Shown here piece after piece: positions 15,508 to 43,845 of a DNA stretch of 64,000 nucleotides. The DNA lies in assembly GCF_014649915.1 (NCBI RefSeq), contig NZ_BMTY01000020.1, positions 80,068-144,067 on the forward strand, given 5' to 3'. The translations under genes were made by a program, and so were the position numbers. The DNA comes from Streptomyces toxytricini (lineage in GTDB: Bacteria > Actinomycetota > Actinomycetes > Streptomycetales > Streptomycetaceae). Position 1 is the stretch's first letter. Each line of letters starts with the position of its first letter. Under the pieces are notes generated by a model, which was not told the DNA's origin, searched no databases, and worked only from the letters and a program-made list of their open reading frames with translations.

Positions 15508-15533
15508 CCGGCTCCCCGCACCGGCGGGGATCG

Positions 15534-15565
15534 AGCCCCCGGGAAGTGATCACTTCCCGGGGGCT
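15534..15565. terminator. Bidirectional terminator between thrS and the channel gene
   Basis: Perfect palindromic inverted repeat (15-bp arms 15535-15549 and 15550-15564, plus an A-T pair) followed on the plus strand by TCGTCG. Its centre TGATCA contains the minus-strand gene's stop codon, so the right arm lies inside that gene's last codons. Confidence 0.8.
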
Positions 15566-37790: not shown

Positions 37791-38573
37791 TCAGTTCCGG
37801 GTGACGGTGCCCTTCTCGATGGTCACGGGGGTCTTCGGGGCCCCGTCCTGGCCGCCGTCGGCGGTGCCCGCCTTGGCGACCTCCTCCAGCGCCTTCATGC
37901 CCCCCGCGTCGATCTTGCCGAACGGGGTGTACGACGGCGCCAGCGGGCTGTCCTTGTAGACCAGGAAGAACTGGCTGCCGCCGCTGTGCGGCCGACCGGT
38001 GTTCGCCATCGCCACCGTGCCCGCCGGGTAGACCACCTGGCCCTGCTCGTTCGGCTTGCCCAGCGCGTCCAGGTTCTCGTCCGCGATCGTGTAGCCCGGG
38101 CCGCCCATGCCGGTGCCCTCCGGGTCGCCGCACTGCAGCACGTAGATCCCCGAGGTGGTCAGGCGGTGGCACTTCGTGTTGTCGAAGAAGCCCTTGTCCG
38201 CCAGCGCCTTGAACGAGTTGACGGTCTCCGGAGTCTTGGCCGCGTCCATCTCGACCTTGACCTCACCCGCGCTCGTCTTCAGCGCGAAGGTGTACTTCGC
38301 CTTCTGGTCGATCGCCATCGCGGGCGCCGGGGAGGCCTTCGGGCTCGCCGACGCCGTCGGGTCCGCCGCCGGGTCGGCGGCATTGTCCTTCTTGCCGGAG
38401 TCGAACACCCCGCCCACCACCAGGCCGACCAGCGTCGCGGCCACCACGGCCGCCGCCGCGCCCGCGATGACCGCCCGCTGCCGCGCCTTGCGACGGGCCT
38501 CGGCGCGCCGCTTCTGCTGACGCTCGAACTTCTCCCTGGCGAGCTGTCGCCGCCGCTGATCGCTCGTGACCAC
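37791..38573 (-). CDS. Membrane-anchored peptidyl-prolyl cis-trans isomerase (cyclophilin)
   Basis: 260 aa. A basic cytoplasmic N-terminus (about 1-30), one membrane helix (about 33-52), a Ser/Ala/Pro linker, then a cyclophilin domain with VNSFKALADKGFFDN, MGGPGYTIADE and VAMANTGRPHSGGSQFFLVYKDSPLAPSYTPFGKI. The catalytic Arg of eukaryotic cyclophilin A is not obvious (CHRLTTSG holds the HR). It probably folds exported proteins. GTG at 38573 is placed by AAGGAG 7 bases upstream. Confidence 0.93.
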   Translation of the reverse strand: MVTSDQRRRQLAREKFERQQKRRAEARRKARQRAVIAGAAAAVVAATLVGLVVGGVFDSGKKDNAADPAADPTASASPKASPAPAMAIDQKAKYTFALKTSAGEVKVEMDAAKTPETVNSFKALADKGFFDNTKCHRLTTSGIYVLQCGDPEGTGMGGPGYTIADENLDALGKPNEQGQVVYPAGTVAMANTGRPHSGGSQFFLVYKDSPLAPSYTPFGKIDAGGMKALEEVAKAGTADGGQDGAPKTPVTIEKGTVTRN

Positions 38574-39462: not shown

Positions 39463-40722
39463 GTGAGCACCTTCAAGGCCCCCAAGGGCACGTACGACCT
39501 GATTCCGCCCCGCTCGGCCAAGTTCCTGGCGGTCCGCGAGGCCATCGCCGCGCCCCTGCGCAACTCCGGCTACGGGTACGTGGAGACCCCCGGCTTCGAG
39601 AACGTCGAGCTGTTCTCCCGTGGCGTCGGCGAGTCCACGGACATCGTGTCCAAGGAGATGTACACCCTCACGACCCGCGGGGGCGACAAGCTCGCGCTGC
39701 GCCCCGAGGGCACCGCGTCCGTGCTGCGCGCGGCCCTGGAGGCCAACCTCCACAAGCAGGGCAACCTGCCGGTCAAGCTCTACTACTCCGGCTCGTACTA
39801 CCGCTACGAGCGCGCCCAGGCCGGCCGCTACCGCCACTTCTCGCAGGTCGGCGCCGAGGCGATCGGCGCCGAGGACCCCGCCCTGGACGCCGAGCTGATC
39901 ATCCTGGCCGACCAGGCCTACCGCTCGCTGGGGCTTAAGAACTTCCGGATCCTGCTGAACTCCCTGGGCGACAAGGAGTGCCGTCCCGCGTACCGCGAGA
40001 CCCTCCAGGCGTTCCTGCGCGGGCTCGACCTGGACGAGGAGACCCTCCGCCGCGCCGAGATCAACCCTCTGCGGGTCCTCGACGACAAGCGGCCCGAGGT
40101 CCAGAAGCAGCTCGCCGACGCACCCCTGCTGCGCGACTACCTCTGCGACGGGTGCAAGGCGTACCACGAGGAGGTGCGCGCGCTGGTCACCGCGGCGGGC
40201 GTCGTCTTCGAGGACGACCCGAAGCTGGTCCGCGGCCTGGACTACTACACCCGCACCACCTTCGAGTTCGTCCACGGCGGCCTGGGCTCGCAGTCCGCGG
40301 TCGGCGGCGGCGGCCGCTACGACGGCCTGTCCGAGATGATCGGCGGCCCGGCACTGCCGTCGGTGGGCTGGGCGCTCGGCGTCGACCGCACCGTCCTGGC
40401 CCTGGAGGCCGAGGGCGTCGAGCTGGACATCGCACGGAGCACCGACGTCTTCGCCGTCGCGCTGGGCGACGCGAAGCCGACCGTGTTCGGCCTGGTCACC
40501 GAGCTGCGCCGGGCCGGTGTGTCCGCGGACATGTCGTACGGCGGCAAGGGCCTCAAGGGCGCCATGAAGGACGCCAACCGCTCGGGCGCCCGCTTCGCCG
40601 TCGTCGCGGGGGACCGCGACCTCGCCGAGGGCGTCGTCCAGCTCAAGGACATGGAGTCCGGCGAGCAGACGGCCGTGCCGCTGGACGCCCTGGTCGAGAG
40701 CGTGCGCGCGAAGCTCGCGTGA
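39463..40722 (+). CDS. hisS: Histidyl-tRNA synthetase
   Basis: 419 aa class II synthetase. [13 protein letters not shown] at the N-terminus, [13 protein letters not shown] as motif 2 context, [15 protein letters not shown] and GGGGRYDGL as the histidine-binding and insertion signatures, and a C-terminal anticodon domain. GTG start; a strong terminator follows immediately. Confidence 0.97.
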
Positions 40723-40726
40723 TGTG

Positions 40727-40760
40727 TCGAGGCCGGACGGCGGACACCGTCCGGCCTCGA
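40727..40760 (+). terminator. Terminator of hisS
   Basis: Perfect 14-bp inverted repeat (40727-40740 with 40747-40760) with loop CGGACA, 5 bases after the hisS stop. Confidence 0.85.
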
Positions 40761-40843
40761 ACCCCGCGAGTGCGGGGAGCAGGCGCCGCCGTTCGTCTCG
40801 AAGGCGTACATCTCCGGGTCATCCCCGCACCGTCGGGGAGCAG
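40754..40843 (-). CRISPR. Orphan two-repeat type I-E-like CRISPR relic
   Basis: Two 29-base units start at 40754 and 40815, a period of 61. Each ends in a 9-base identical GGGGAGCAG after a CCCC-type hairpin (CCCCGC-GAGT-GCGGGG in unit 1, CCCCG-CACCGT-CGGGG in unit 2). The interval is 32 bases (40783-40814), the standard I-E spacer length. Unit 2 resembles the reverse complement of the known I-E repeat (compare E. coli). Unit 1 is degenerate at the end that would be its 3' end on the minus strand, as terminal repeats often are. There is no leader-like AT-rich flank and no cas gene in the window. The right arm of the hisS terminator overlaps unit 1. Confidence 0.45.
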
Positions 40844-40921
40844 CTGACCGGACAACGACCGGCGGCCGCACGCGGTTACCGCCCGGCAGGCCCCACAGGA
40901 CCGTGCGGCAGAATGCAGCGC

Positions 40922-41530
40922 ATGACGACGACTACAGGCGACACGACCGTGCGGACCGTCGGCGCGAGCAGGGCCCTGGCCTGGCTGCTGGTGATCACCG
41001 GCGCGGCCGGGCTGCTGGCGGCCTGGGTGATCACGATCGACAAGTTCAAGCTGCTGGAGGACCCGAACTTCACGCCCGGGTGCAGCCTGAACCCCATCGT
41101 CTCCTGCGGCAACATCATGAAGAGCGAGCAGGCGGCGGTGTTCGGCTTCCCGAACCCCATGCTCGGCCTCGTCGCCTACGGCATCGTGGTCTGCGTCGGC
41201 ATGAGCATCCTGGCCGGGGCCCGCTTCCGGCGCTGGTACTGGCTCACCTTCAACGCCGGCACCCTCTTCGGCGTCGTCTTCTGCGCCTGGCTGACGTACC
41301 AGTCGCTGTACAGCATCAGCGCGCTCTGCCTGTGGTGCTGCCTGGCCTGGGCCGCCACCATCCTGATGTTCTGGTACGTCACCGCGCACAACGTCCGCGA
41401 GGGGCTGCTGCCCGCACCGGCCTGGCTGCGGAACTTCCTCGACGAGTTCACCTGGGTGCTGCCCGTGCTGCACATCGGGATCATCGGCATGCTGATCCTG
41501 ACCCGCTGGTGGGACTTCTGGACCTCCTGA
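40922..41530 (+). CDS. Vitamin K epoxide reductase-family membrane protein
   Basis: 202 aa with four to five membrane helices and the VKOR cysteines: a pair in the first periplasmic loop (GCSLNPIVSCGNIM) and the CxxC active site in CLWCCLAW. VKOR reoxidises extracytoplasmic thiol oxidases by passing electrons to quinone. ATG at 40922 is chosen, with CAGAAT at 40909-40914 suggesting a near-leaderless start. Located between hisS and rarA. Confidence 0.92.
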   Translation: MTTTTGDTTVRTVGASRALAWLLVITGAAGLLAAWVITIDKFKLLEDPNFTPGCSLNPIVSCGNIMKSEQAAVFGFPNPMLGLVAYGIVVCVGMSILAGARFRRWYWLTFNAGTLFGVVFCAWLTYQSLYSISALCLWCCLAWAATILMFWYVTAHNVREGLLPAPAWLRNFLDEFTWVLPVLHIGIIGMLILTRWWDFWTS

Positions 41531-41570: not shown

Positions 41571-42929
41571 GTGGAACCAGACCTGTTCACCGCCGCAGCC
41601 GAAGACCGCGCGGAGAAGGATCCGGCGAGCTCCCCGCTCGCCGTCCGGATGCGCCCGCGCACCCTGGACGAGGTCGTCGGGCAGCAGCACCTGCTGAAGC
41701 CGGGCTCGCCGCTGCGGCGGCTGGTCGGCGAGGGCGCGGGCGGCCCGGCCGGTTCCTCGTCGGTGATCCTGTGGGGCCCGCCGGGCACCGGCAAGACGAC
41801 CCTGGCGTACGTGGTGAGCCAGGCGACGCAGAAGCGCTTCGTGGAGCTGTCCGCGATCACCGCCGGCGTCAAGGAGGTCCGGGCCGTCATCGAGGGCGCC
41901 CGGCGCGCCGCCGGCGGCTACGGCAAGGAGACCGTCCTCTTCCTCGACGAGATCCACCGCTTCAGCAAGGCGCAGCAGGACTCCCTGCTCCCGGCCGTCG
42001 AGAACCGCTGGGTGACCCTGATCGCGGCGACGACCGAGAACCCGTACTTCTCGGTGATCTCCCCGCTGCTGTCGCGCTCGCTTCTGCTGACGCTGGAGCC
42101 GCTGTCCGACGGGGACCTGAGCGGCCTGCTGCACCGGGCGCTGGCCGAGGAGCGGGGGCTGGGCGGGGCGGTGTCGCTGCCGGAGGACGCGGAGGCGCAC
42201 CTGCTGCGGATCGCGGGCGGGGACGCCCGGCGGGCGCTGACGGCGCTGGAGGCGGCCGCGGGGGCGGCCCTCGCCAAGGGCGAGGACGAGATCACGCTGG
42301 GGACGGTGGAGGAGACCGTCGACCGGGCGGCCGTGAAGTACGACCGGGACGGCGACCAGCACTACGACGTGGCGAGCGCCCTGATCAAGTCGATCCGCGG
42401 CTCCGACGTGGACGCGGCCCTGCACTACCTGGCGCGGATGATCGAGGCGGGGGAGGACCCGCGGTTCATCGCGCGGCGCCTGATGATCTCGGCGAGCGAG
42501 GACATCGGGCTGGCCGATCCGAACGCGCTGCCGCTGGCGGTGGCCGCCGCGCAGGCGGTGGCGATGATCGGCTTCCCGGAGGCGGCGCTGACCCTGTCGC
42601 ACGCGACGATCGCGCTGGCGCTCGCCCCGAAGTCGAACACGGCGACGACGGCGATCGGCGCGGCCCTCGCGGACGTGCGGGCGGGTCTGGCCGGGACGGT
42701 GCCCGCACACCTGCGGGACGGGCACTACAAGGGCGCGGCGAAGCTCGGGCACGCGGTGGGGTACGTGTACCCGCACGACGTTCCGGGGGCGATCGCGGCG
42801 CAGCAGTACGCGCCGGACGCGGTGCACGGCAAGCGGTACTACGAGCCGACGCGGTACGGCGCGGAGGCGCGCTACGCGGACGTGGTGGAGAAGGTCCGCG
42901 AGCGGCTCCGCGGCGCGGGCGGCGCCTGA
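41571..42929 (+). CDS. rarA: Replication-associated recombination ATPase RarA (MgsA)
   Basis: 452 aa AAA+ clamp-loader-like protein. Walker [10 protein letters not shown] (about 69), Walker [16 protein letters not shown] (about 123), sensor 1 AATTENPYF, arginine-finger region SRS, and the family C-terminal domain ending with EKVRERL. It acts at stalled or gapped replication forks. GTG at 41571 gives the expected length. Ends next to a hairpin-prone 31-base gap before the convergent DUF2470 gene. Confidence 0.94.
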
Positions 42930-42960
42930 CCGGCCGCCGGTGAACCCGGCGGAGGGGTTC

Positions 42961-43845
42961 CTAGCGGCCGGCCGCGGCGAAGAGGTGGTGCATCGCGCGG
43001 CGCAGGCCGCACACGTCGCGCACCGGGGCGGGGAAGTCGAAGCGGGCGTCGAAGGAGGAGGACACCGCGGCGCCGGGTCGGCTGAAGCGGACGCGCAGGC
43101 CGAGGCGGTCCAGGGCCAGGGGGACGGCGGTGAGGGCGCCGTCGCGGCGGGGGCCCAGCAGGGAGCCGAGGTCGGCGACCCGGTCGCGGTGTGCGGCGGC
43201 GAGGTGCTGGAGGAGCTCGGTCTCGTGGTCCAGGAGGGGGTCGGGTTCGGCGGAGGCGAGGTCGTCGGGGTCGACGTGCTCGGCGCCCCACAGGTCGTCG
43301 AGGGAGATCTCGCCGACCTCCAGGCGCAGCAGCACCCATCCGGGGCGGGAGTCCAGGCCGAGGAGTCCGCCGACGGGGCGGCGCTCGGCGAGGAGGGCGG
43401 CGCAGGCGGCGCGCTCGGCCGCCGGGACCCGCGTCAGCCACCCCGCGAGCCACGCGCGGCCTCGGATACGATGGGGCACGGACACCGGCGCCACATCCGT
43501 GATCTCGATCACGGCGGTGAGGTCGTCGTCCTGGGCGTGAGCGGCTGCCCTGGCAGCCGCGGATTCCCCTGGTACCAGGAGAAGCACGTCCCCGTCCGGG
43601 GTGACGGTCCGCGCGGCCGGCACCCCTGTCCACCACTCTCCCTGGTCGTGAGCACCCGGCAGCGTGAGGGATACTGAGGCGTTGGACTCTACGAGGGTTC
43701 GTACGCGTTCGGCTCCGGTGAGCTGCCGAACGCCTTCCCTGGGACGCGGCTGACCTTGTTCATCGTCGTCGAAAGCGGATTCCGGTTGATGGGAATCCGA
43801 ACTCCGATGCGCTCTGGGCAGGGGGATCCCATGCGGTCGAGACAT
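42961..43845 (-). CDS. DUF2470-domain protein, probable heme/iron-related flavin-type protein
   Basis: 294 aa. After a Pro/charged N-terminus, RVRTLVESNASVSLTLPGA and VTPDGDVLLLVPGES look like the split beta-barrel (PNPOx-like) half, and the C-terminal region ending CGLRRAMHHLFAAAGR looks like DUF2470. This combination occurs in HugZ-like heme-utilisation proteins. ATG at 43845 is fixed by GAGGAGG at spacing 5. An iron box immediately upstream (43860-43878) supports an iron-responsive role; the enzymatic activity is unknown. Confidence 0.75.
   Translation of the reverse strand: MSRPHGIPLPRAHRSSDSHQPESAFDDDEQGQPRPREGVRQLTGAERVRTLVESNASVSLTLPGAHDQGEWWTGVPAARTVTPDGDVLLLVPGESAAARAAAHAQDDDLTAVIEITDVAPVSVPHRIRGRAWLAGWLTRVPAAERAACAALLAERRPVGGLLGLDSRPGWVLLRLEVGEISLDDLWGAEHVDPDDLASAEPDPLLDHETELLQHLAAAHRDRVADLGSLLGPRRDGALTAVPLALDRLGLRVRFSRPGAAVSSSFDARFDFPAPVRDVCGLRRAMHHLFAAAGR

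Follow-up and report, generated by a model that had tools for sequence, protein, structure and literature searches.

A minimal type I-E CRISPR beside hisS of Streptomyces toxytricini carries a guide that fits foreign hisS alleles better than its own

In the draft genome of Streptomyces toxytricini (7.2 Mb, 53 contigs) we analysed one stretch of 64,000 nucleotides, C20:80068-144067, which is called the window below and whose numbering is used throughout. Judged by its sequence, the interval 40754-40843 on the minus strand is an ectopic minimal type I-E CRISPR, with two repeats and one spacer, placed between hisS and a gene of the VKOR family. Its guide fits non-self hisS alleles better than the hisS gene next to it. 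The mini-array is orphaned only locally, because the I-E effector genes lie on another contig of the same genome. Our preferred explanation, held at somewhat less than even confidence, is that the mini-CRISPR would make a crRNA against non-self hisS and is linked to an immune hisS, like a poison supplied together with its antidote.

Table 1. Features of the hisS locus and of the mini-array, in window positions
Feature	Positions	Strand	Remarks
hisS (histidine--tRNA ligase)	39463..40722	+	NCBIfam TIGR00442, E 1.1e-129; the only hisS of the genome
Site B, place in hisS matched by the G330 spacer	39580..39611	-	24/32 in own hisS, preceded by AAC
AAG at the PAM position of site A	39652..39654	+	directly before own site A
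Site A, counterpart of the spacer in own hisS	39655..39686	+	23/32, with an exact match over the first 9 nt
Hairpin after hisS, taken as its terminator	40727..40760		inverted repeat with 14-bp perfect arms
Second repeat, R2	40754..40782	-	hairpin retained (20/21); final 8 nt lost to the hairpin that follows hisS
Spacer, 32 nt, GAGATGTACGCCTTCGAGACGAACGGCGGCGC	40783..40814	-	hisS-derived; translates EMYAFETNGG
First repeat, R1	40815..40843	-	5' part and handle ATGACCCG kept, hairpin loop altered
Stretch upstream of R1	40844..40905	-	alignable with G330; candidate promoter
VKOR family gene, downstream flank of the array	40922..41530	+	NCBIfam NF011480, E 2.3e-12, under the model's cut-off

The layout is 29 + 32 + 29 nt with repeat starts 61 apart (Table 1), and the two units with 29 + 32 geometry and a 61-base period described at this place in an earlier sequence-only reading are thereby confirmed. 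Because the array runs along the minus strand, its first repeat is the right-hand unit. Read as crRNA, R1 has the sequence CTGCTCCCCGACGGTGCGGGGATGACCCG and R2 the sequence CTGCTCCCCGCACTCGCGGGGTTCGAGGC; the reference repeat, taken from the first array on contig C5, is CTGCTCCCCGCACACGCGGGGATGACCCC. Both units are repeats of about 29 nt with a CCCCG...CGGGG hairpin of the I-E type, and there are only two of them, where the usual array criterion is three or more. R1 agrees with the reference at 23/29 positions (16/21 in the first 21 nt, 7/8 in the handle) and R2 at 22/29 (20/21 in the first 21 nt, 2/8 in the last 8 nt). By the 29-nt total R1 is the closer to the native repeat (23 vs 22) because R2 is without its last 8 nt; the hairpin is more altered in R1. 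The final 7 nt of R2 (40754-40760) lie within the right arm of the hairpin after hisS (arms 40727-40740 and 40747-40760), so the partial overlap of one unit with the hisS terminator, also seen earlier, is real. On the minus strand this hairpin is the next one after R2, and no T-run terminator was scored at it. The best-kept parts are those that one crRNA needs, namely the R1 handle, the spacer and the R2 hairpin.

When the window was shuffled 100 times with dinucleotides preserved, 29-mers reached 22 at most (in 3/100 shuffles) and 21-mers 18. The 29-nt score of R1 and the 21-nt score of R2 exceed these maxima; the 29-nt score of R2 (22) does not. A genome-wide search for CTGCTCCCCGNNNNNNCGGGGNT at zero mismatches gave the two C5 arrays and the two units described here, and nothing else. 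Folded separately, R1 gave -10.9 and R2 -13.2 kcal/mol, against -14.3 for the native repeat; when the 90-nt RNA was folded whole, R1 paired with R2 and two separate hairpins did not form, a pairing that, in this model, could hinder Cas6e. Upstream of R1 no leader resembling those of the C5 arrays was found in a by-eye comparison, which saw no likeness beyond the repeat, and no consensus promoter for the mini-array was recognised. A third unit resembling the I-E repeat (22/29) was observed elsewhere in the window, at 15509-15537, just after the thrS stop codon (15507). It had no partner visible about 61 nt away and, with a score reached by 3/100 shuffles, may be chance.

Contig C5 carries two long type I-E arrays with a cas operon between them. 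Their repeats, mostly CTGCTCCCCGCAC[A/G]CGCGGGGATG[A/T]CCCC, are near-identical to those of the mini-array. The operon encodes a 1598-aa Cas3-Cse1 fusion, Cse2, Cas7, Cas5, Cas6e and Cas2, and Cas3 and Cse1 were observed as a single 1598-aa open frame (L116 4694-9487). The cas1 gene of this genome is split over two reading frames (L117 2975-3930, with the break near L117:3380), which is either an error of the draft or a real defect that may have switched off spacer uptake. The I-E interference module is apparently intact. The earlier statement that no cas genes are present thus holds at the locus and fails for the genome, where a search for similar repeats and I-E cas genes, proposed at the same time, found both on C5. 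The suggestion of a type I-E array without local cas genes that is served by a distant cas locus agrees with the C5 operon and its two arrays of nearly the same repeat. We also examined the native C5 spacers for a PAM: each array had matches in two phage records, at 69-75% and in segments that ran across repeats; these established no protospacer.

Where does the spacer come from? The hisS gene, which ends 31 bp from R2, was among the own-genome matches of a search with the spacer seed. Against 134 other hisS sequences the spacer agrees at up to 30/32 positions, and AAG stands before all 15 of the 15 best sites; AAG is a working PAM for type I-E and the presumed one of this system. As controls, 300 random 32-mers of the window reached at most 25 against hisS, and 45 regularly spaced C5 spacers at most 23. 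By these alignment scores the mini-array spacer is derived from Streptomyces hisS and the ordinary C5 spacers are not, an origin in the adjacent gene that was overlooked earlier. A source in phages or plasmids, for which a check had been proposed, was not borne out: matches were weak only (best E 0.9 for phages and 0.06 for plasmids), and a 21-nt exact spacer pattern had 0 matches in viral contigs. A scan of 141 loci for hisS-like 32-mers lying outside hisS found them in rows of the own genome only. Estimated from distance alone (about 2.4 kb of 7.2 Mb), an orphan array placed at random would be expected so close to its own target gene only a few times in 10,000. A second hisS copy acting as a rescue was considered and rejected, since the genome has none.

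Sequences that this guide fits are widespread in the genus. The first 30 nt of the spacer, at up to 3 mismatches, occur in 262 of 392 genus genomes (the own genome included, its match being the spacer itself). At site A in other hisS rows, among best matches of at least 20/32, AAG precedes 130/132 and AAA the other 2, both from one genome, G042. The commoner site-A allele, KEMYAFETKGG, is present in 70/115 rows and mostly agrees with the spacer at 28-30/32.

A 171-nt query with the array, run against 391 other genomes of the genus, found one other carrier, G330 (76% over 168 nt, E 8.6e-24). Its mini-array stands at the orthologous place after hisS, and the comparison of this intergenic region between relatives, suggested earlier, shows that the arrangement hairpin-32 nt-hairpin is kept with starts 61 apart. 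The spacer is a different one, AGGTTCACGTCTTCGAATCCGGGCGTCTCAAC, and it also comes from hisS, from the opposite strand about 75 nt upstream of site A. It agrees with hisS of other species at up to 28/32, with AAG before 9/9 best sites, and with G330 hisS at 24/32, with AAA before the site and a mismatch at nt 3. Site B in other rows gave 132 best matches at 20/32 or better, preceded by AAC in 72 cases and by AAG in 60. In G330, whose draft comprises about 720 contigs and is rated as 100% complete, neither Cas6e nor Cas7e was found, which means that the array cannot now work there as I-E; Cas7e was present in 6/20 genomes tested in a survey that included G330. The sequence closest to G330 by hisS among six rows compared is L127 (genome G188), at 90.6%, and no mini-array was found there. 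By VKOR, G330 is closest to the own genome, at 92.7% among ten rows compared.

Behind hisS, paired CCCCG/CGGGG hairpins at a distance of 56-66 nt were seen in 3/137 distinct stretches, which are the own genome (two rows) and G330. The handle plus spacer pattern at zero mismatches was found only in G000 among 392 genomes, and four others with 2 mismatches look like chance. When the stretches downstream of hisS were compared with a hisS panel (E 0.01), 78 had matches, against 23 in shuffles. Among the best 25 of those 78, the own and G330 stretches are spacer-like and the rest are apparently hisS end, downstream coding sequence or GC-rich noise; the L249 stretch among those matches is GC-rich and has no repeat pair. 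No hisS match came from a further eight loci that look like arrays; these have 3 to 30 units of the repeat pattern, and four are on plasmids. Six viral contigs (L276-L281) were observed to carry I-E-type repeats like those of the own genome, in some apparently arranged as mini-arrays with two or three repeats, and these contigs too gave no hisS match. An unusually long gap between hisS and VKOR was rejected, as it measures 202 nt here and 77-1174 nt in 112 rows.

The target tract itself is variable. Across Streptomyces, hisS codons 68-70 show a three-codon AFE/TLT dimorphism. On a hisS tree built without that tract we counted at least 9 AFE/TLT changes, at least 6 of them on well-supported branches, and such repeated switching suggests that the tract is often exchanged or converted. 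The own hisS has TLTT (the TLT type), as do 17/22 rows of its cluster in carrying TLT (SH-aLRT 91). Since its cluster is mostly TLT, the immunity of the own hisS may predate the guide.

Windows of VKOR and of the hydrolase-like gene upstream show 91-98% identity between the own genome and G330, against 79.3% in 39601-39750. Low values occur elsewhere too (79-81% near the hisS end, 83% at 38251-38400, 83-85% at 42901-43500), so low identity is not unique to the target. Within hisS nt 120-225 the identity of this pair is 13.8 points under the gene average, and a fraction of 0.000 of 1928 control pairs with the same overall identity is as low, the control mean being 3.8 points above their gene mean. 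By deviation at site A among 136 hisS sequences, G330 ranks 1, L127 ranks 2 and the own gene ranks 3, and the same three are in the top 4 within 45 TLT sequences and at third codon positions, in rankings whose rows are not independent of one another. This pattern fits a past escape from a guide against site A, in the two array genomes and in a close relative of one of them. Other measures speak against it. Ranked by raw divergence, own site A comes only 60th of 409 windows when compared with all rows, 55th with the nearest 40 and 86th with TLT rows; after scaling, 22/408 windows of the own hisS are as low as site A, and its C-terminal stretch at nt ~960-1030 is more extreme at longer windows. 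In G330 hisS 10/408 windows are as low, the lowest at nt 169, and site B there is ordinary (rank 37/136). A rare-codon test was weak, with p 0.049 and 0.166 (combined 0.047), and 0.19 and 0.31 at a looser threshold. Replacement of the whole hisS gene was unsupported: the discordance of own-G330 identity between hisS and VKOR is ordinary, 15.9% of 44 pairs being as low. As a separate observation, G042 (L119/L221), which is second to G330 by VKOR among ten rows compared and is without Cas7e, has the common site-A allele with AAA in place of AAG at the PAM, as the sole such row of 115. This is suggestive only.

How could such an element act? Under the poison-antidote explanation, Cas6e encoded on C5 would cut the transcript into one crRNA, composed of the handle ATGACCCG, the hisS guide and the R2 hairpin. 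This crRNA would load into an I-E Cascade with the fused Cas3-Cse1 and would direct cleavage of hisS alleles that have the matching site after AAG, as most other Streptomyces examined have. The adjacent hisS would be spared because its target site differs. A sensitive hisS, incoming or resident, would be destroyed, and recombinants that keep the linked hisS would survive. The different guide in G330, together with the local hisS change at the first target site, would fit repeated rounds of such conflict. Both guides match sensitive alleles of an essential gene after AAG (30/32 for the own guide, 28/32 for that of G330), and in both genomes the linked copy differs at the target (23/32 in the own genome; 24/32 with AAA and the nt 3 mismatch in G330). 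Against function count the idle G330 copy, the split cas1, the missing native-like leader and recognisable promoter, and the R1-R2 pairing of the folded RNA. The linkage of array and target is the point that the rival readings explain worst.

A further step, which we consider doubtful, is that this may be a natural RNA-guided poison-antidote element that borrows the host Cascade to lock in or spread its own hisS, with the guide being replaced once relatives are immune. Such replacement is suggested by the different hisS guides of the two species and by the altered first target site. Against spread counts the sparse distribution, 1 of 391 other genus genomes and not L127, which is near G330. 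If the explanation is true, it would be a new use of CRISPR: an element beside an essential housekeeping gene, with a guide taken from that gene, a poor fit to self, and recurrence with another guide. It would then mark allele exclusion, or be a naturally occurring equivalent of the cleave-and-rescue drives that have been engineered.

It is also possible, and nearly as likely as the poison-antidote explanation because carriers are few and one of them is without cas6e or cas7e, that we see a fragment of an I-E array with hisS-derived spacers, left beside hisS after an old episode of self-targeting or anti-hisS activity, with the site since changed or replaced and the fragment inactive today. 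The presence of only two repeats, the altered R1 and the absence of a native-like leader speak for this relic, as do the loss of cas6e and cas7e in G330, the sparse distribution among genomes and the split cas1 of the own genome. However, a relic leaves unexplained why two species, each with a spacer of its own, both have the array right next to the gene that the spacer matches. In the own genome the interference module is apparently intact, and what is best preserved in the array is what a single crRNA needs. The degraded array proposed earlier is thus one of several live readings.

That the element is a regulator of the CreA/CreR kind we consider improbable. In such a case the crRNA would bind the own hisS through AAG and a 9-nt seed, without cleavage, and Cascade would lower hisS transcription. 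The architecture is creA-like, with two degenerate repeats of which R1 is the more altered, in so far as the available text of two reports describes it (PMC9458426, PMC8501985), the element adjoins its target, and the own hisS indeed offers AAG, a 9-nt seed and 23/32. Yet the site is about 190 nt into the coding sequence rather than in a promoter, the guide resembles foreign hisS far more closely than the own gene, and the G330 guide mismatches its own hisS at nt 3, after AAA, so that binding would be required at a site poorly matched in both genomes. The cas region (C5:224500-244500) contains no match of at least 7 seed bases after AAG.

A chance pair of GC-rich, terminator-like hairpins spaced 61 nt, the independent origin that had also been considered, can be dismissed in spite of the third unit (22/29) after thrS and the R2 29-nt score of 22 reached by 3/100 shuffles, because R1 over 29 nt and R2 over 21 nt fall outside 100 shuffles, similar repeats stand on C5, an exact 32-nt spacer is hisS-derived with AAG, G330 has an orthologous copy, and such a hairpin pair is absent from the other 134/137 stretches examined. 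Neither of the two findings named earlier as evidence of chance similarity, a genome without similar repeats elsewhere and an orthologous region without the 61-base period, was made.

Among known systems, the nearest are the Streptomyces type I-E arrays on C5, with which the mini-array shares repeat sequence, 29 + 32 geometry and crRNA orientation. Unlike them, it has two altered repeats only, no native-like leader, a place far from cas and a spacer from a neighbouring housekeeping gene. Synthetic toxin-antidote (cleave-and-rescue) drives direct a guide against a sensitive allele of an essential gene and link it to a recoded resistant copy. The mini-array has in common with them the guide against a sensitive essential allele and the linked resistant copy; in contrast to these drives it is natural and bacterial, would use the Cascade of its host, and its killing and biased spread are putative.

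Ectopic mini-CRISPRs are described, in the available portions of the reports, as repressing toxin or cas promoters (CreA/CreR; PMC8501985, PMC9458426, PMC12737573), and in creA genes the R1 hairpin is more altered than that of R2 (PMC9458426). So far as these accounts extend, the mini-array is alike in having a single spacer flanked by two diverged repeats in which the 5' handle and 3' hairpin persist, in adjoining its target, and in having R1 more diverged than R2 (16/21 vs 20/21 in the first 21 nt, with the R1 handle at 7/8). It differs from that description in being directed at the hisS coding region rather than a toxin or cas promoter, in matching foreign alleles better, and in that no toxin was identified beside it by searches for which CreT-type toxins are too small. 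Because the target type differs, we do not class it as CreA/CreR. A CreR acting on the own cas operon was rejected, as the spacer has no match of at least 7 seed bases after AAG in the C5 cas region.

No hisS-linked array in Streptomyces was found in the open-licence literature; a search of 2401 genomes is stated, in the accessible part of one report, to have given 472 Streptomyces strains with a complete Cascade set (PMC11941474). In Pelobacter carbinolicus, as given in the excerpts available, type I-E spacer #1 matches the own hisS exactly and belongs to an array of 112 repeats (PMC2923632; also PMC6990116). There, on the same excerpts, another part of the gene is matched, from a long array and with exact self identity, whereas the mini-array has one spacer beside hisS and a mismatched own target. 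Common to both is a type I-E guide directed at hisS (PMC2923632), and Streptomyces would be added to this single case found earlier, as far as that source describes it.
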